Virus record (IMG/VR): IMGVR_UViG_3300025789_000179
Coordinates: 1 to 21,367 of that record
Origin: a virus
Strand: one strand, 5' to 3'
Length of the DNA stretch: 21,367 bases
A model generated the notes under the pieces. That model was not told where the DNA came from, did not search any database, and saw nothing but the letters and a program-made list of their open reading frames with translations. Positions within the stretch are counted from its first letter, which is position 1. Every line of letters starts with the position of its first letter. This document shows, piece after piece, positions 429-5,464 of this stretch. Both the position numbers and the translations under genes were made by a program.

Positions 429-653
429 GTAAGGGATGACCGTGATTAAAGATTTTTCTCGGTCGATGTCTATCGTGCCCTCACAGGCGATGTTCCAGTC
501 GTCACCATCACGCTCTGAGTGGCAGACAACCATGATGGTCACTTCTTTGCACAGGTATTCTTTTTTATCAACGAACACACGCCAAGCGTGATCTGGAGTA
601 CCCCTGCCCGGTTGACCTCGAGACTTGTTGAACCTGATTTGAATGTGTGCCAT
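417..653 (-). CDS. Hypothetical protein, 78 residues
   Basis: The protein starts MAHIQIRFNKSRGQPG and looks like a small mixed alpha/beta domain with many short beta-type segments (AWRVFVDKKEYLC, VTIMVVCHSE, WNIACEGTIDID). No membrane segment or known motif is seen. The start ATG shares its A with the stop of the oxygenase gene (TGATG), so translation is probably coupled. The ribosome binding site is unusually strong: GAGGTGATC matches nine bases of the classic 16S tail complement. Its 3' end overlaps promoter copy A of the next gene. Function unknown. Confidence 0.75.
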   Translation of the reverse strand: MAHIQIRFNKSRGQPGRGTPDHAWRVFVDKKEYLCKEVTIMVVCHSERDGDDWNIACEGTIDIDREKSLITVIPYALT

Positions 654-1270
654 CAGATCACCTCAGCTTGTGGTGGTGGGTTGGGGTTTTGCATCACGCC
701 AAGATTCATGTGAATGAACTCGGTTGGTTGTTCAGACTGGTTGCGAGAGAAGCTGTGCGGCAGCCAAGAATTCGTGAGCACTAAGTCGCCGGGTGAGAAC
801 GTAAACACCACCGAGTTCGACGCAGCCGTGTATTTCGATGGATCACTTTCTCCGATGCTTGCATACACCTTCGCATGGCGGGGATCATGAAGCGTCATCG
901 TGCATCCACCTTCGGGCACAGTTAAAAAGTAAAACGCCGTGACTTGAGTCTGCGAGTGAAGGTGTTGCTCCATCCCAGAATTCTGGTTGTGCCGTTGCAT
1001 CCACATCTCCGTGAAGAACGTCACCAAGGGCGTCATGTTGTAGCCCTGCGAATTTAAGACGTTCCAAGCGGTCTGGGAGACGTATTGCGCAAATGGCTGT
1101 ACCTCGGGGTCAAGGGACATGTTTGCGCCCATCTGAATGTCGTGTATGGCGTTGCGCGGGCCATCGACAAAGTTCTTGTAGGCAGACGCCTTGACGATGT
1201 CTAGGTACTCTGGCTTCTTAACCAAGTAAACCGAAGACGCAAAGTAACCAACCTCATCCAGCTTGTCCAT
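653..1270 (-). CDS. 2OG-Fe(II) oxygenase-like protein
   Basis: A 205-residue protein resembling the phage 2-oxoglutarate/Fe(II) oxygenases (PF13759-like), which use 2-oxoglutarate and oxygen to hydroxylate a substrate, often nucleic acid or protein. The matching signals are QHLHS (H103, H105), DPR at 129-131, and GDLVLTNSWLPHSFSRN with H172 as the likely distal iron ligand. In relatives an Arg follows the last His by about ten residues and binds 2-oxoglutarate; here that stretch reads QPTEFIHMNLG with no Arg at the expected place. I chose the ATG at 1270 over the GTG at 1276 because AGGAG at 1280-1276 lies five bases before the ATG and overlaps the GTG. The gene has its own promoter-like motif at 1292-1315. 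Substrate unknown. Confidence 0.8.
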   Translation of the reverse strand: MDKLDEVGYFASSVYLVKKPEYLDIVKASAYKNFVDGPRNAIHDIQMGANMSLDPEVQPFAQYVSQTAWNVLNSQGYNMTPLVTFFTEMWMQRHNQNSGMEQHLHSQTQVTAFYFLTVPEGGCTMTLHDPRHAKVYASIGESDPSKYTAASNSVVFTFSPGDLVLTNSWLPHSFSRNQSEQPTEFIHMNLGVMQNPNPPPQAEVI

Positions 1271-1275
1271 AACCA

Positions 1276-1307
1276 CTCCTGTTGTTGCTCAAAGATTGTA
1301 ACAACAG
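1276..1307 (-). promoter_or_regulatory. Inverted repeat over the ribosome binding site of the oxygenase gene
   Basis: CTGTTGTT and AACAACAG form 8-base arms separated by 13 bases. The 3' arm on the minus strand runs into the AGGAG ribosome binding site (1280-1276). If transcribed, the hairpin could hide the site; as DNA it could be an operator. The left half coincides with promoter copy B, so transcription starting near 1288 would leave out one arm. That favours an operator, or control of read-through RNA from the region upstream. Confidence 0.4.
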
Positions 1308-1315: not shown

Positions 1316-1614
1316 AAATTCGTGACGCACCACGAGTCTTTGATTGATTATTGTTTACTTACTAATCCCTTATTTTTTTCTTATTCTTCACTTACTGGGT
1401 ACTTTGCTGCTCCGAGGTGGACAGGCCCAGCCCTCCTGCGAGGGATAAGCCTTAACAGATTCTGCTCGTCGGAGTATCTGACCCGTCAGCCGTTCGATGC
1501 TAGGGCGCTAACTTCGCCACCCATACCCCTGTCTCAGCATCTTTCCCGTAGTGGGGGTGTCCCTGAATCGCTACCGCCAGTGCGCGTCCGATTCAGCGGG
1601 TAAGGCCACAAAGC

Positions 1615-1712
1615 AAAAAACCCATTGGTGAACGAGCTTTAGGCTTGGTTGCCGCATAAGAGCCTGCGTAGACAGGACATCCCAGCTTTGACGAAGCCCG
1701 CTCACCAATGGG
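1615..1712 (-). terminator. Terminator-like helix with T tract (leftward)
   Basis: A perfect 11-bp helix (1712-1702 with 1631-1621) is followed directly by TTTTTTGC on the minus strand. The loop is a branched domain of about 70 bases, much larger than in a usual rho-independent terminator, so efficiency is doubtful. GGGT of the 3' arm could instead pair with ACCC near 1400, which would open the helix; this is inference. Confidence 0.35.
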
Positions 1713-1761
1713 TTTGCGGTTGCGTTTCTACGAACTACAACGGGTTACCAATCCGTTGATG
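1615..1761 (-). ncRNA. Candidate discrete small RNA inside the structured region
   Basis: Downstream of the consensus promoter at 1768-1797, a transcript starting near 1761 would first form a hairpin (CAACGG 1758-1753 with CCGTTG 1743-1738). It would then form a branched element closed by 11 bp (CCCATTGGTGA with TCACCAATGGG) containing GCTT/AAGC, CCTG/CAGG and AGGCT/AGCCT arms, and end in six T. The CCTG/CAGG and AGGCT/AGCCT arms share bases and exclude each other. The whole is about 147 bases. It could be an independent RNA or the middle domain of the larger RNA. Confidence 0.4.
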
Positions 1762-1767
1762 GTTTGG

Positions 1768-1797
1768 ATTATACACAGATAAAACTGTTGTCAACAA
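1768..1797 (-). promoter_or_regulatory. Consensus sigma70-type promoter inside the noncoding region
   Basis: The minus strand holds a perfect -35 (TTGACA, 1794-1789) and a perfect -10 (TATAAT, 1773-1768). The spacer is 15 bases, two shorter than ideal. TTGTTG at 1797-1792 would give 18 bases instead. A palindrome with arms GTTGT and ACAAC (1798-1787) lies on the -35 and could be an operator. Apart from the structured RNA there is nothing to express for about 490 bases downstream. Confidence 0.55.
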
Positions 1798-1886
1798 CTT
1801 TTTTTAGGTGGGGTACTCGCTGCGTCTAGTGTCTCTTTATGTGCCCTGTCTAGAACAAGTAACCAGCATCCGCTTTCCCCCTAAAT

Positions 1887-1914
1887 TGGTCGGGTCGTCT
1901 GGAGTCGAACCAGA
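1887..1914 (-). other. tRNA-like T-arm, acceptor 3' strand and CCA
   Basis: On the minus strand TCTGG-TTCGACT-CCAGA forms a five-pair T-arm with a canonical T-loop. It is followed by seven bases CGACCCG, a discriminator A and an encoded CCA. No matching 5' acceptor strand occurs at tRNA distance. The closest partner, GGGTCG, lies at 2085-2080, about 190 bases upstream. The preceding TTCTA/TAGAA helix sits where an anticodon stem would be but encloses 27 bases instead of 7. It is therefore not an ordinary tRNA; it could be a tmRNA-like or tRNA-mimicking domain. Confidence 0.5.
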
Positions 1915-2118
1915 TAGACTTCTAACACACCCTGCTGTTTATTACGCACTCTAGAAGTTGCCGTTCAAGCAAGTAGCCACAGAAGAAGTTTTGCACCCAA
2001 TGTGCAATCGTGCCACCACATCACGCTTCAACCCGAAAATATTGTTGGTGTGTGCATCGCAGGGTGTATCTGCACACGGCGACCCTTTCAGCTTTCGCTT
2101 ACTCGCCCCCAACCCATT

Positions 2119-2183
2119 ACCAACACGACTTAGGACTAATCATGGATGAACCCATATAAGCGTCAATCCTAATGCGTGTTGGT
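2119..2183 (-). other. Rod-like hairpin near the 5' end of the structured RNA region
   Basis: Three stacked helices share one axis. ACCAACACG (2183-2175) pairs with CGTGTTGGT (2127-2119). TTAGGA (2172-2167) pairs with TCCTAA (2135-2130). An inner ATGG/CCAT closes a GTTCAT loop. Nineteen of the pairs are Watson-Crick, separated by short internal loops. A DNA-level role (cruciform or protein site) cannot be excluded. Confidence 0.6.
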
Positions 2184-2274
2184 GTTGGTGGCTCACATAA
2201 AGCAGTGTTACCTAGGGGAATAGAAGATGAATTGACTCCACCGGCGCTAACCCGATGCACCACCAACAAAAAAA

Positions 2275-3117
2275 TTATATCTCCATTATTTTGGCCACTA
2301 CAGCAAACAGCCCGTTGTTTTTATGCAAATCGTTCGCATCCCAACCCTTCTCATCGGCCATGACGTAAGGCTTGCCAGTCTCCTTAGCAGTTGCCTCACC
2401 CACGCCCGACTCGTCGTTGTCAGCAAAAATTTTGACAGAGCCTTGCAGCTTCTCAGCAACCGACTTCATGTTGTTCGCAGAAAAACAAACAACAACCGCA
2501 TCTTGGTGGCCAATCGATCTTAAAGCTTTCAAGAGCGACAAACCCGTTGCATAGCCCTCTACAAGCCATGCCCCTTGGTTCCGCGGCCCCATCCACATAA
2601 CTGCATCTTTCGCCCGCATACCAAAGATCATTTTCTTGTGGTACTTGCGCTCATGGTCATCCCACCAGATCGTCTGGACGCCTTGCAAATCATTCGTGAT
2701 GACGTTGCGCATCGGAACCATTAACCGGTCTTCTAGGACAAGTCCCATTTCGTCCGGCAAGCCCTTCATCTCGAGGTATGAATGGGAACGGCGATCGGCG
2801 TGTTTAAGCAACTCCATAGCGCGTTCTACGGCCTTTTGTTGCTCAGACTGACGCCTCTGTGCCTCGTGCTGCCTTTGGCGCTTCCAAGCGTCTTTATCGG
2901 CGTCTGTCCATGGCTTCGCGTTGGGGTCTTGATACCACTCAACTCGAGCACCTTCAGACCAGTTAAAAACCCAACCACGCTGGCCATCCCAAAAGTAAGC
3001 ACCGTTGGTCGACCGGGGTTTGTCAACCGTCCCGCACCGGCGAATGCGCTCGGACGCAAACAACCGGTCGGGGTTGATCTCCACCCCATGGGCACGGGCA
3101 AAGTCAATGAAACTCAT
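2275..3117 (-). CDS. Toprim-domain DNA primase
   Basis: A 280-residue protein that probably makes RNA primers at the phage replication fork. Residues 25-60 (RRCGTVDKPRSTNGAYFW, WVFNWSEG) resemble the template-binding N-terminal part of phage and plasmid primases but lack a full set of zinc cysteines. Residues 80-105 are a charged helix. SHSYLEMKGL at 111-120 is typical of TraC- and P4-type primases. The Toprim fold covers about 183-265: VEG with E187, then the metal-binding FADND with D233 and D235, and KGWDANDLH. The start overlaps the helicase stop as ATGA, so the pair is coupled and may act together. It is short for a full primase, and a separate catalytic partner is possible. The candidate structured RNA begins within about ten bases of its stop. 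Confidence 0.85.
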   Translation of the reverse strand: MSFIDFARAHGVEINPDRLFASERIRRCGTVDKPRSTNGAYFWDGQRGWVFNWSEGARVEWYQDPNAKPWTDADKDAWKRQRQHEAQRRQSEQQKAVERAMELLKHADRRSHSYLEMKGLPDEMGLVLEDRLMVPMRNVITNDLQGVQTIWWDDHERKYHKKMIFGMRAKDAVMWMGPRNQGAWLVEGYATGLSLLKALRSIGHQDAVVVCFSANNMKSVAEKLQGSVKIFADNDESGVGEATAKETGKPYVMADEKGWDANDLHKNNGLFAVVAKIMEI

Positions 3118-4694
3118 TTGTCACCTCGCTCTTTCAACATTTCGAGGAACACGTTTACATCACTTTTTTTCTGGTTTCCCTTCTTCCACTTCATGTTCAT
3201 CTGCGTGATCTTGTTTTTAACGGCCGGTGTAATTTCAACTTGCGGAGCCGTACTGAACTGCCACGTCGTTTCTTGCCCCGTAATATCTTTATACAAGTGC
3301 CAAGCACGACCAGACTGCTTCTCAGGAGCGCTGTGCATCCGCGCATAACTGCATAACTGATGCCAAAGATGCCTCGCATCGTCTGCAAGTTTCTTTCGAT
3401 TCTTGCCTTCGCCAATGAAGATCTCTTTCATCTCCCCCGGACGTTGTTCGATCAATGCTTGCGGCTTCTTCTCAAAACCACACGCCATGCAGCGCTTCGT
3501 AAACGGCTTGTACCCACACCGCGGGCAACCCTTCAGTTCGTAGTCATCATCCTTACGGATCTTCTTGTCCAGCTTCTCACCAGAATCCAACTGGGCCAGA
3601 CCATTGAAAAAGATCTCGGTGTAGTCCTCGGCAAACCGGATGATGTTGCCCGAGAAGTCCAGCAAGATGCAGTCGGTCTTACCAGTCTCAGGCGATGAAC
3701 GAAGTCCACGACCCCACATCTGAATGGCCGTCGACAACGACTTACGCAAAGGCCTTGCATCACATACACAACCGACGTCAGGCACGTCAAAACCTTTTGC
3801 CAAGGCCTCGACACTGATCAAGACCTTCAGCATGCTGTTGGGCTTCCTGTACTCTTTCAACAGTAGTTCACGTTCGGCGGCAGTTGTCTCCGAAGTAAAC
3901 ACCGCGGCCATGATGCCGTGGCGGGTGAACTCAGAGGCCAGTTGTTTGCAGTGAGCAATCGTCGCACCAAACACAATCGTCTTGCGGCGCTCAGAATAGC
4001 GAATCCACTCCGAAACCACATCCCCGACGATCTCCATGCCACGCTCGGCAGCCGCAACGTCAGTCCACTCACCGCCAGCGGTCTTAGCGCCGGTCATATC
4101 GGGCTTTGTGCAAGAGAAAACACGCATGGGCACCAACACCCCTGACTTTGTCAGTTCGTTCATTGTGGTGGCGTTAATCAGGTTTGAGAATATCTTTCCC
4201 AGACCCGGCGAGAACGGCGTTGCAGACAGACCGATCACAGCCGCCCCAGTTGACATGGCGTACTCAGTCCAGACCTTCAACTGAGTGTGAGCCTCGTCAA
4301 CCACCAGCACATCCAACTGTGGCCAGTACTCACGCTTGGCGATGGTCTGTGCTGAGGCGATCTGGAGCAACTGGTGAGGCTGGCGCCTCCAATGATCCGC
4401 TTGAATCACGCCGTGTTCGGTCAGCCCATAGTTGTCGGCAGCGGCTGATGTCTGGTTGATCAGCGTGGTGCGGTCACACAAAAACACAGCACGTTTGCCT
4501 TTTTGCATGGCCTCGTTGCAGATACGCAAGCCGAGGTAAGTCTTTCCAGCCCCGGTGGGGGCCATGATCAACTGGTTCTTGTGGCCATCACGGAACCCTT
4601 GGCGAAGGGCTTGATGGGCGGCAGATTGGAACGGGCGTGGTTCAGGGAATGTAGTTCCATCATCACACCCACTTGGTGCTAGGACGTTGGTCAT
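3114..4694 (-). CDS. SF2 DEAH-box helicase with zinc ribbon
   Basis: A 526-residue ATP-driven DNA helicase, probably the replicative or recombination helicase partner of the adjacent primase. Visible motifs in order: Walker A APTGAGKT (45-52), Walker B DEAH (133-136), motif III SAT (157-159), motif V region EALAKGFDVPDV (296-307) and motif VI QMWGRGLR (325-332). A four-cysteine zinc ribbon follows (C390-x2-C393, C402-x2-C405). The C-terminal tail of about 120 residues is basic, with no recognised fold. Layout is closest to RecG/UvsW/RAD25-like SF2 helicases found in phage replication modules. Both ends overlap neighbours by ATGA (primase downstream, ParB-like gene upstream), indicating one operon. 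Confidence 0.92.
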   Translation of the reverse strand: MTNVLAPSGCDDGTTFPEPRPFQSAAHQALRQGFRDGHKNQLIMAPTGAGKTYLGLRICNEAMQKGKRAVFLCDRTTLINQTSAAADNYGLTEHGVIQADHWRRQPHQLLQIASAQTIAKREYWPQLDVLVVDEAHTQLKVWTEYAMSTGAAVIGLSATPFSPGLGKIFSNLINATTMNELTKSGVLVPMRVFSCTKPDMTGAKTAGGEWTDVAAAERGMEIVGDVVSEWIRYSERRKTIVFGATIAHCKQLASEFTRHGIMAAVFTSETTAAERELLLKEYRKPNSMLKVLISVEALAKGFDVPDVGCVCDARPLRKSLSTAIQMWGRGLRSSPETGKTDCILLDFSGNIIRFAEDYTEIFFNGLAQLDSGEKLDKKIRKDDDYELKGCPRCGYKPFTKRCMACGFEKKPQALIEQRPGEMKEIFIGEGKNRKKLADDARHLWHQLCSYARMHSAPEKQSGRAWHLYKDITGQETTWQFSTAPQVEITPAVKNKITQMNMKWKKGNQKKSDVNVFLEMLKERGDK

Positions 4695-5464
4695 TTTTTA
4701 ACTTTGTCGAGTTGTCGTTGGAGGGATTTGACCATCTTGGTCAGTTCGGTGTTGGTGTTAACCAAACCATTGTTTGTGATCTTGAGGTGGTGAATCTCAA
4801 GCAGGGATTGCTTCAGAAGTTTAGCGGTCTCTTCCAACACGTCATCAGCCTCGAAGGCTTCTTGCATGAACTCCAAGAATTCATTGTGCGCACGTTCAGA
4901 AGCACGAATCTCTTCGTCTGAGGGGCCGAAATCGTCCAGTTTAACTGGATCGTCAGTTTCAGTTGAGTCCAGTTTAACTGGGGCCTTGGCCTTCTTTTCG
5001 ATATGCTTTTGCATATTCTTGGCTTGCTTGGCCTTGACTTCAGGATTGCGGATGGCGGCCACAAACGTGTCAGAGACTTCGCAAGCTATCGCAATTTTGA
5101 TGTTGCTCAACAAACACCATTCAGCGTCATTCAACATAGTCTGAACGCATATGCGCTTGTCTTCGTTGGTGCGACGCAATCCATGATTTTGATTGGCCTT
5201 GAGCGCATACAAAATTGCTTCTCGGACAGAGCCAAATCTTACTTCGCAGTCAAGCGTCATGATCTTGGCGGCCTCGGTTGCATGGTAGCGGTGGAACCCG
5301 TCAGCCAGCCAGTAATTTACGCCATCAAAGAACACAACGCATGGAACAAACTGTGCGCCCCCACGGAACGCTTCAGCGTATTCCTTCACCAAGTCCATAT
5401 TGATGGAGGCACGCATCTGTGTTCCACCGTCAATACGAATTTCACTAAGTTTCAATCTTTCCAT
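4691..5464 (-). CDS. ParB/Srx-domain protein with C-terminal coiled coil
   Basis: A 257-residue protein. The N-terminal 95 residues match the ParB/Sulfiredoxin-like fold, with the hallmark WLADGFHRYHA (G56-F-H58-R59) that binds nucleotide in CTP-using ParB proteins. Residues 100-150 look helix-turn-helix-like. Residues 150-200 are an acidic, low-complexity linker with PVKLD twice. The C-terminal 60 residues form a coiled coil, so a dimer is likely. In phages such proteins act in DNA binding, gene control or nicking rather than necessarily in partition. The start is preceded by AGGAG, and the stop overlaps the helicase start. Its own coding DNA contains two copies of a 13-base palindrome (4936-4981). 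No ParA partner is visible. Confidence 0.85.
   Translation of the reverse strand: MERLKLSEIRIDGGTQMRASINMDLVKEYAEAFRGGAQFVPCVVFFDGVNYWLADGFHRYHATEAAKIMTLDCEVRFGSVREAILYALKANQNHGLRRTNEDKRICVQTMLNDAEWCLLSNIKIAIACEVSDTFVAAIRNPEVKAKQAKNMQKHIEKKAKAPVKLDSTETDDPVKLDDFGPSDEEIRASERAHNEFLEFMQEAFEADDVLEETAKLLKQSLLEIHHLKITNNGLVNTNTELTKMVKSLQRQLDKVKK
4936..4981. repeat. Paired 13-base palindromes
   Basis: CCAGTTTAACTGG occurs at 4936-4948 and 4969-4981, spaced 33 bases, about three helical turns. Its reverse complement CCAGTTAAACTGG is at 15548-15560 inside the large virion gene, and a 12-base match lies at 15972-15983. Here the pair encodes PVKLD twice, so a peptide duplication explains part of it. A protein-binding site, possibly for the gene's own ParB-like product, is an alternative. 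Confidence 0.5.

Follow-up and report, generated by a model that had tools for sequence, protein, structure and literature searches.

The gene-free stretch behind a phage primase gene very probably holds, as judged from sequence comparison, at least four separate structured RNA elements and not a single giant RNA. One of these elements belongs to a known family of unassigned function, Betaproteobacteria-1 RNA (RF02932), and the others appear to match no described RNA family. We read this island as an exchangeable, modular set of separate phage RNA genes that probably act in trans and face the host, a reading to which we assign a probability of roughly 60%.

The window analysed spans an entire viral contig (21,367 bases). 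Between the primase stop and the point where the 2OG-oxygenase ORF starts, it contains 998 nt with no plausible gene.

653-1276, minus strand: 2OG-Fe(II) oxygenase ORF (Pfam)
2275-3117, minus strand: Toprim primase ORF

The longest ORF in this gap (93 amino acids) is antisense to the RNA strand, and a protein-coding explanation was rejected for lack of a long ORF on the RNA strand itself. Conservation, compensatory changes, promoter and terminator alike indicate the minus strand, which is also the strand of the helicase-primase operon. Compared with 20 dinucleotide shuffles, an 895-nt region has a more stable fold (z of -3.4 on the minus and -3.7 on the plus strand), an excess due mainly to two hairpins, S (z of -5.2) and M2 (z of -5.0). 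The initial annotation had described about 880 bases of structured, gene-free DNA; the structure and the absence of genes stand, whereas the single block dissolves into several separable elements. Its claim of noncoding, structured, minus-strand phage RNA with tRNA-type sequence is borne out by conserved elements and compensatory changes, and the contrast between random and compensatory changes, which it had named beforehand as the refuting test, came out in favour of structure.

The part of the island nearest the primase comprises the following elements.

2184-2267, minus strand: M1, a conserved 84-nt element with outer stem GUUGGUGG/CCACCAAC, hairpin CAnCGG-GUUAGCG-CCGnUG and invariant ACACUGCUUUAUGUG
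2119-2183, minus strand: M2, hairpin ACCAACACG...CGUGUUGGU, from comparison with L003-L006
1800-2118, minus strand: M3, a block with a GC-GAAA-GC loop, split by the tRNA-like insert, from sequence comparison
1887-2035, minus strand: tRNA-like insert with a 7-bp acceptor (CGGGUUG/CGACCCG), T-arm (UCUGG-UUCGACU-CCAGA) and encoded CCA

BLAST matches to M1 span 24 loci in several phage backgrounds, including relatives with other flanking genes (L030, L036, L040, L050 and L051) in which the order M1-S-T is unchanged. The n-n pair of its hairpin is U-G, C-G, U-A, G-C or A-U in a nine-sequence alignment, and because just one pair covaries, support for the predicted M1 structure is modest. M1 is followed by variable hairpins bearing the tRNA-like insert. 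The inner part of M2 is swapped out in relatives, and in L006 an M2-type hairpin precedes M1 instead of following it; M3 is present in L005/L014 and L062 and missing from L003, L004 and L006. The GNRA loop and the T-arm that had been read from the sequence at the outset were both found, the former near position 2090 of the minus strand. The geometry of T-arm, 7-bp acceptor stem and CCA was seen in 0 of 200 whole-contig shuffles. The insert is absent at the same site in L005, and L062, in other respects a different phage, carries an identical copy. ARAGORN finds no tRNA gene in the window, and with neither an ARAGORN nor an Rfam call the insert does not qualify as a tRNA or tmRNA.

The middle of the island is occupied by S, a compact unit with signals of its own.

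1768-1794, minus strand: S promoter, sigma70-type (TTGACA at 1789-1794, 15-nt spacer, TATAAT at 1768-1773)
1615-1761, minus strand: S RNA, about 145-147 nt, with the 5' end inferred from the promoter
1727-1732 and 1667-1672, minus strand: S pseudoknot strands A and A', in which the leader pairs with a hairpin-loop segment
1621-1639/1694-1712 (19-bp stem) and 1615-1620 (U6), minus strand: S terminator

The promoter hexamers score 12/12 matches, and their arrangement is repeated before S in most relatives. Most islands contain, just before the last module, a near-TTGACA/TATAAT promoter, a leader of about 25-60 nt, a long hairpin and a U-run. With TTGACA-15-TATAAT, a 19-bp stem and U6, S has the anatomy by which intrinsic-terminator sRNAs are recognised (promoter, stem of at least 7 bp, U-run); a generic promoter/terminator scan, which accepts 16-18-nt spacers only and limits the loop, misses both signals. 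Leader-loop complementarity across 42 S RNAs is 9.92, compared with 7.54 for shuffled leaders and 7.76 for the leaders of other S RNAs; the former difference has a Mann-Whitney p of 5e-15, which is not a strict probability since the sequences are related. Within S2, a type represented by 16 aligned RNAs, 93.5% of cells are paired with the pseudoknot included, and 16 double-changed pairs compare with 6.4 in shuffles (0/500), relatedness in this count and in those for T2 and T3 below being handled by slid-partner and shuffle controls alone. Sliding the partner by one base lowers S2 pairing from 93.5% to about 49%. In S1 (five RNAs, 96% alike), A and A' are complementary in every case, as CGUAGA/UCUACG in the window and as CACAGA/UCUGUG, CAUCGA/UCGAUG (twice) and CACUGA/UCAGUG elsewhere. 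The S RNAs appear to form one structural family, because a covariance model based on S2 detects S3 and other S types immediately upstream of T. S has no Rfam match, and models of S2 and T3 found nothing in 300 Burkholderiales genomes. In its predicted features, as comparison among relatives shows, S is a short RNA unit that combines a promoter of its own with a covarying pseudoknot between 5' part and loop and with an intrinsic terminator. The S RNAs would offer a natural set of terminator pseudoknots that differ by swapped specificities.

Immediately after S comes a slot, T, filled by RF02932 in the window and by T2, T3, T4 and more classes elsewhere.

1400-1605, minus strand: T module, Betaproteobacteria-1 RNA (RF02932) together with a 3' domain outside the Rfam model
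1481-1598, minus strand: Rfam-modelled part of RF02932 (101.2 bits against a gathering score of 49.4, E of 2.3e-18)
1462-1467, minus strand: repeat copy 1, GAGCAG, in the 3' domain
1407-1412, minus strand: repeat copy 2, GAGCAG, in the 3' domain

RF02932 is the sole family of Rfam 15 that cmscan places above cut-off in the window, with no other family above chance even at E<=5, and the T module spans the full model (positions 1-120). The hairpins of the model covary (A2 columns 63-66/92-95, with 10-17 double changes per pair), as does the stem of the 3' domain (CAGAU/AUCUG, CAUGU/ACAUG, CACAA/UUGUG). As single sequences, RF02932 (z of -0.5) and T2 fold no better than shuffles, their support coming from covariation alone. 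The 3' domain was analysed by anchored comparison, a MAFFT alignment of all copies being poor there, and is ordered as stem, variable motif after CUCC, conserved stretch and the same motif repeated after CCACC. This motif of 6-9 nt agrees between its two places in an RNA and varies from phage to phage (GAGCAG, UAAGCAGA, GGUGCAG, AAGGAAU, GGGUGUA, GGUUCAUG and AAAAGCAAA). Among 33 non-redundant RNAs the mean common stretch is 7.0 nt, compared with 3.89 +- 0.20 after permutation; none of 20,000 permutations reached the observed value, and their maximum was 4.9. The repeat was also the strongest direct repeat in a blind scan of all window pairs of four alignments, and no comparable covarying direct repeat was present in T2, T3 or S. 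In six out-of-sample copies, read by hand, it measures 7-8 nt in three and is partial, at 4-5 nt, in three. The complement of the repeat does not exceed mismatched controls, whether looked for within the RNA, in S or in upstream and downstream sequence. A target-site duplication is an unlikely origin because the repeat sits at fixed positions within a conserved scaffold.

The two repeat copies may be duplicate contact sites for one partner that varies from phage to phage. We tentatively entertain a more specific possibility, a two-slot cassette that joins a pseudoknotted, terminator-ended S to an exchangeable T of at least four dissimilar classes, in which the duplicated hypervariable motif of the RF02932 T, guide-like and 6-9 nt long, would recognise a nucleic-acid partner in trans.

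Of the 300 Burkholderiales genomes, 7 contain RF02932, above cut-off in 5. In Variovorax and Xenophilus its place is after a helicase-primase pair, in what are evidently prophages. It also lies in chromosomal intergenic regions of Paraburkholderia and Caballeronia and is therefore not purely a phage gene. The repeat of these chromosomal copies is nearly constant (AGGGGCAU in L065, L070-L072, L074, L077, L079-L081 and L083-L085), and its copy 1 can base-pair with a GAUGC that follows it, a feature that most phages lack. Another RF02932-bearing viral contig contains a group I intron (L033, 11889-12147, 79 bits). No paper on Betaproteobacteria-1 RNA was found in the literature covered, mostly open-access journal papers.

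Other occupants of the T slot are structured as well. T3 (16 sequences) has 55 pairs including a pseudoknot, with 95.6% of cells paired and 15 double-changed pairs compared with 6.5 in shuffles (0/500); T2 (7 sequences) has 88 pairs and 17 double changes, again compared with 6.5 (0/500). Neither has an Rfam match. Isolate-phage records contain no T3 and a single 41-nt match to T2. In six relatives (L005, L105, L106, L116, L126 and L128) an insert takes the place of the T3 apical loop, mostly seated on an adaptor helix, GUGAUUGAUGAUG/CAUCAUCAAUCAC; in L106, Rfam recognises this insert as a tRNA (33.7 bits, cut-off 29), its arms being expanded. The early suggestion of a new class holds in so far as S, T2 and T3 lack an Rfam match.

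Searching with S alone, using patterns for two S types only, recovered 93 viral contigs (53 with S2, 40 with S1). Where enough downstream sequence was available, one of four T classes followed S in 56 of 90 contigs: RF02932 in 10, T2 in 8, T3 or a T3-type 5' domain in 33 (some of these matches being weak, at 38-47 bits) and T4, the L062 type, in 5. S1 and S2 were each found with all four classes. Most of the remaining S contigs carry further conserved clusters, including a 12-member RF02932-like group. An RF02932-like T group with a GGUGGGCGAAG...AGAGCC core (L142, L145, L149, L150, L154, L160, L161, L171, L183 and L190) was missed by BLAST with RF02932 seeds and is probably a sister class of that family. 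In primase relatives, long gene-free stretches of other sequence behind the primase (L019, 5896-6215; L022, 5895-6216; L020, 5981-6250) are possible further T classes.

The comparison set was gathered by relatedness to the primase or to the RF02932 core, and in it blocks are lacking, reordered or replaced in close relatives whose neighbouring blocks are about 95% identical. L003 and L004 keep nucleotides 1-112 and those from 499 onward of the 895-nt query (L004 to 677) at 94-97% identity, with the middle missing. L062 shares 537 nt of the island at 98.5% identity, and its helicase and primase, 4-7 kb away, are only 35-37% identical. An HNH endonuclease gene (L062, 3336-3930) follows the transferred island and may have aided its movement. 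Comparison thus shows S and T types that, by all appearances, recombine freely in different phage lineages. Plasmid relatives were not found. Among other observations, a primase relative bears an int-alpA RNA (L016, 887-963, RF02996), and in Manatee Spring phage (L055, MW202545.1) six tRNA genes separate the primase from the S/RF02932 pair. The RNA region of this phage is overlapped by two annotated 'hypothetical proteins' (4245-4820 and 4832-5289), which are probably no genuine genes; parts of such regions are annotated as hypothetical proteins in both MW202545 and MW202426.

These exchanges bear on the idea of a single large, ornate RNA like GOLLD or ROOL, about 880 nt long, in which the S hairpin would be an internal rod and the tRNA-like insert would sit in a linker. 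Size and tRNA-type insert do recall GOLLD, whose linker sometimes houses phage tRNAs (PMC12286853), and the M1-S-T order is kept in distant phages. A single 880-nt molecule is nevertheless very improbable, because promoter and 19-bp terminator signals occur in mid-region and because relatives gain, lose, reorder, replace and exchange single blocks independently. Homology to GOLLD or ROOL, as the initial annotation had inferred from size and context, finds no covariance-model match at the gathering score or at E<=5; as recognisable members, GOLLD, ROOL, tmRNA and 6S are ruled out by cmscan. Nor does the island fit GOLLD as a single RNA of about 800 nt with a conserved 3' half, given the independent block exchange and the internal promoter and terminator.

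The gene context addresses a different proposal, a DNA-level replication or packaging site beside the primase whose hairpins would act as DNA structures. The island does follow helicase-primase genes in many relatives, yet elsewhere it stands between other genes, and of the 69 S contigs that extend far enough upstream, only 18 show a homologous primase immediately before S. The latter count indicates that the island has spread across several phage lineages. Strand-specific promoter and terminator logic and the tRNA-like insert suit RNA, and we give the DNA-site proposal scant credence.

Under the preferred reading of separate RNA genes, S would be made by host RNA polymerase from its own promoter and end at its own terminator. 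T would arise through read-through of the helicase-primase transcript or form its tail, and would act in trans as a folded RNA. In L008, L012, L018, L041, L044 and others, T lies about 20-50 nt after the primase stop and S is absent. Where S is present, a strong terminator separates it from T, and read-through leaves the transcription of T unexplained. In the main rival reading, S would be a cis-acting attenuator whose pseudoknot and terminator decide read-through into T and the genes behind, by antitermination like that at lambda pR'-tR' or by a riboswitch-type switch, with T as the regulated product or part of the leader. It would account for the fixed order, for T standing directly after S (typically within 50 nt), for the succession of promoter, short transcript and terminator and for the fact that T exists without S, yet almost every S has a T-like RNA behind it. 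Against this, S shows little sequence conservation of the ligand-pocket kind, A-A' pairing is compatible with the terminator rather than competing with it, and an independent terminator-ended sRNA would show identical anatomy. We consider the attenuator unlikely. For the trans-acting RNAs, an accessory, host-facing role in host takeover or defence evasion would suit better than housekeeping, because the modules exchange rapidly and the contact sites are hypervariable.

What appears new is the S-T two-slot arrangement, of which the literature searched (mostly open-access journal papers) contains no instance; the RF02932 module itself is already known, and S, T2, T3 and T4 lie outside every family tested here. 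The accessory regions of phages tend to be interpreted as protein-coding, and this locus would instead consist of RNA genes, mostly outside Rfam 15, that are conserved yet rapidly exchanged in relatives of Burkholderiales phages. Should T RNAs target the host or its defences, they would represent a reservoir of RNA-based phage effectors.

A comparison with known systems places the island as follows. The window T shares with Betaproteobacteria-1 RNA the conserved GGGUGGCGAAG..AGCGCC core, whereas the Rfam model ends before the 3' domain, with its covarying stem and duplicated hypervariable motif, and gives no tie to S or to a slot. For RF02932, the island thereby supplies a setting in phages, the 3' domain that was missing and, in the duplicated variable motif, a feature open to testing. 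Like GOLLD and ROOL, the island elements are phage-borne structured RNAs close to tRNA-type sequences, and the T3 of some relatives has a tRNA-like insert in its apical loop; unlike them, they are far smaller units (about 145-380 nt) arranged in series with an internal promoter and terminator, and show no sequence or structure match to either. Phage c4 antisense RNA (RF01695) is likewise a small structured phage RNA, but it has no Rfam match here, and nothing like the c4 target genes was seen. In the late-gene control of phage lambda, the strong promoter of the pR'-tR' (6S) region is followed by a short RNA and a terminator. S is built along similar lines, with a strong promoter, a short RNA, a terminator and a further transcription unit behind. 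It differs in that no antiterminator gene or site was identified here, in that the unit standing behind S is another RNA and in that S itself has a covarying pseudoknot.
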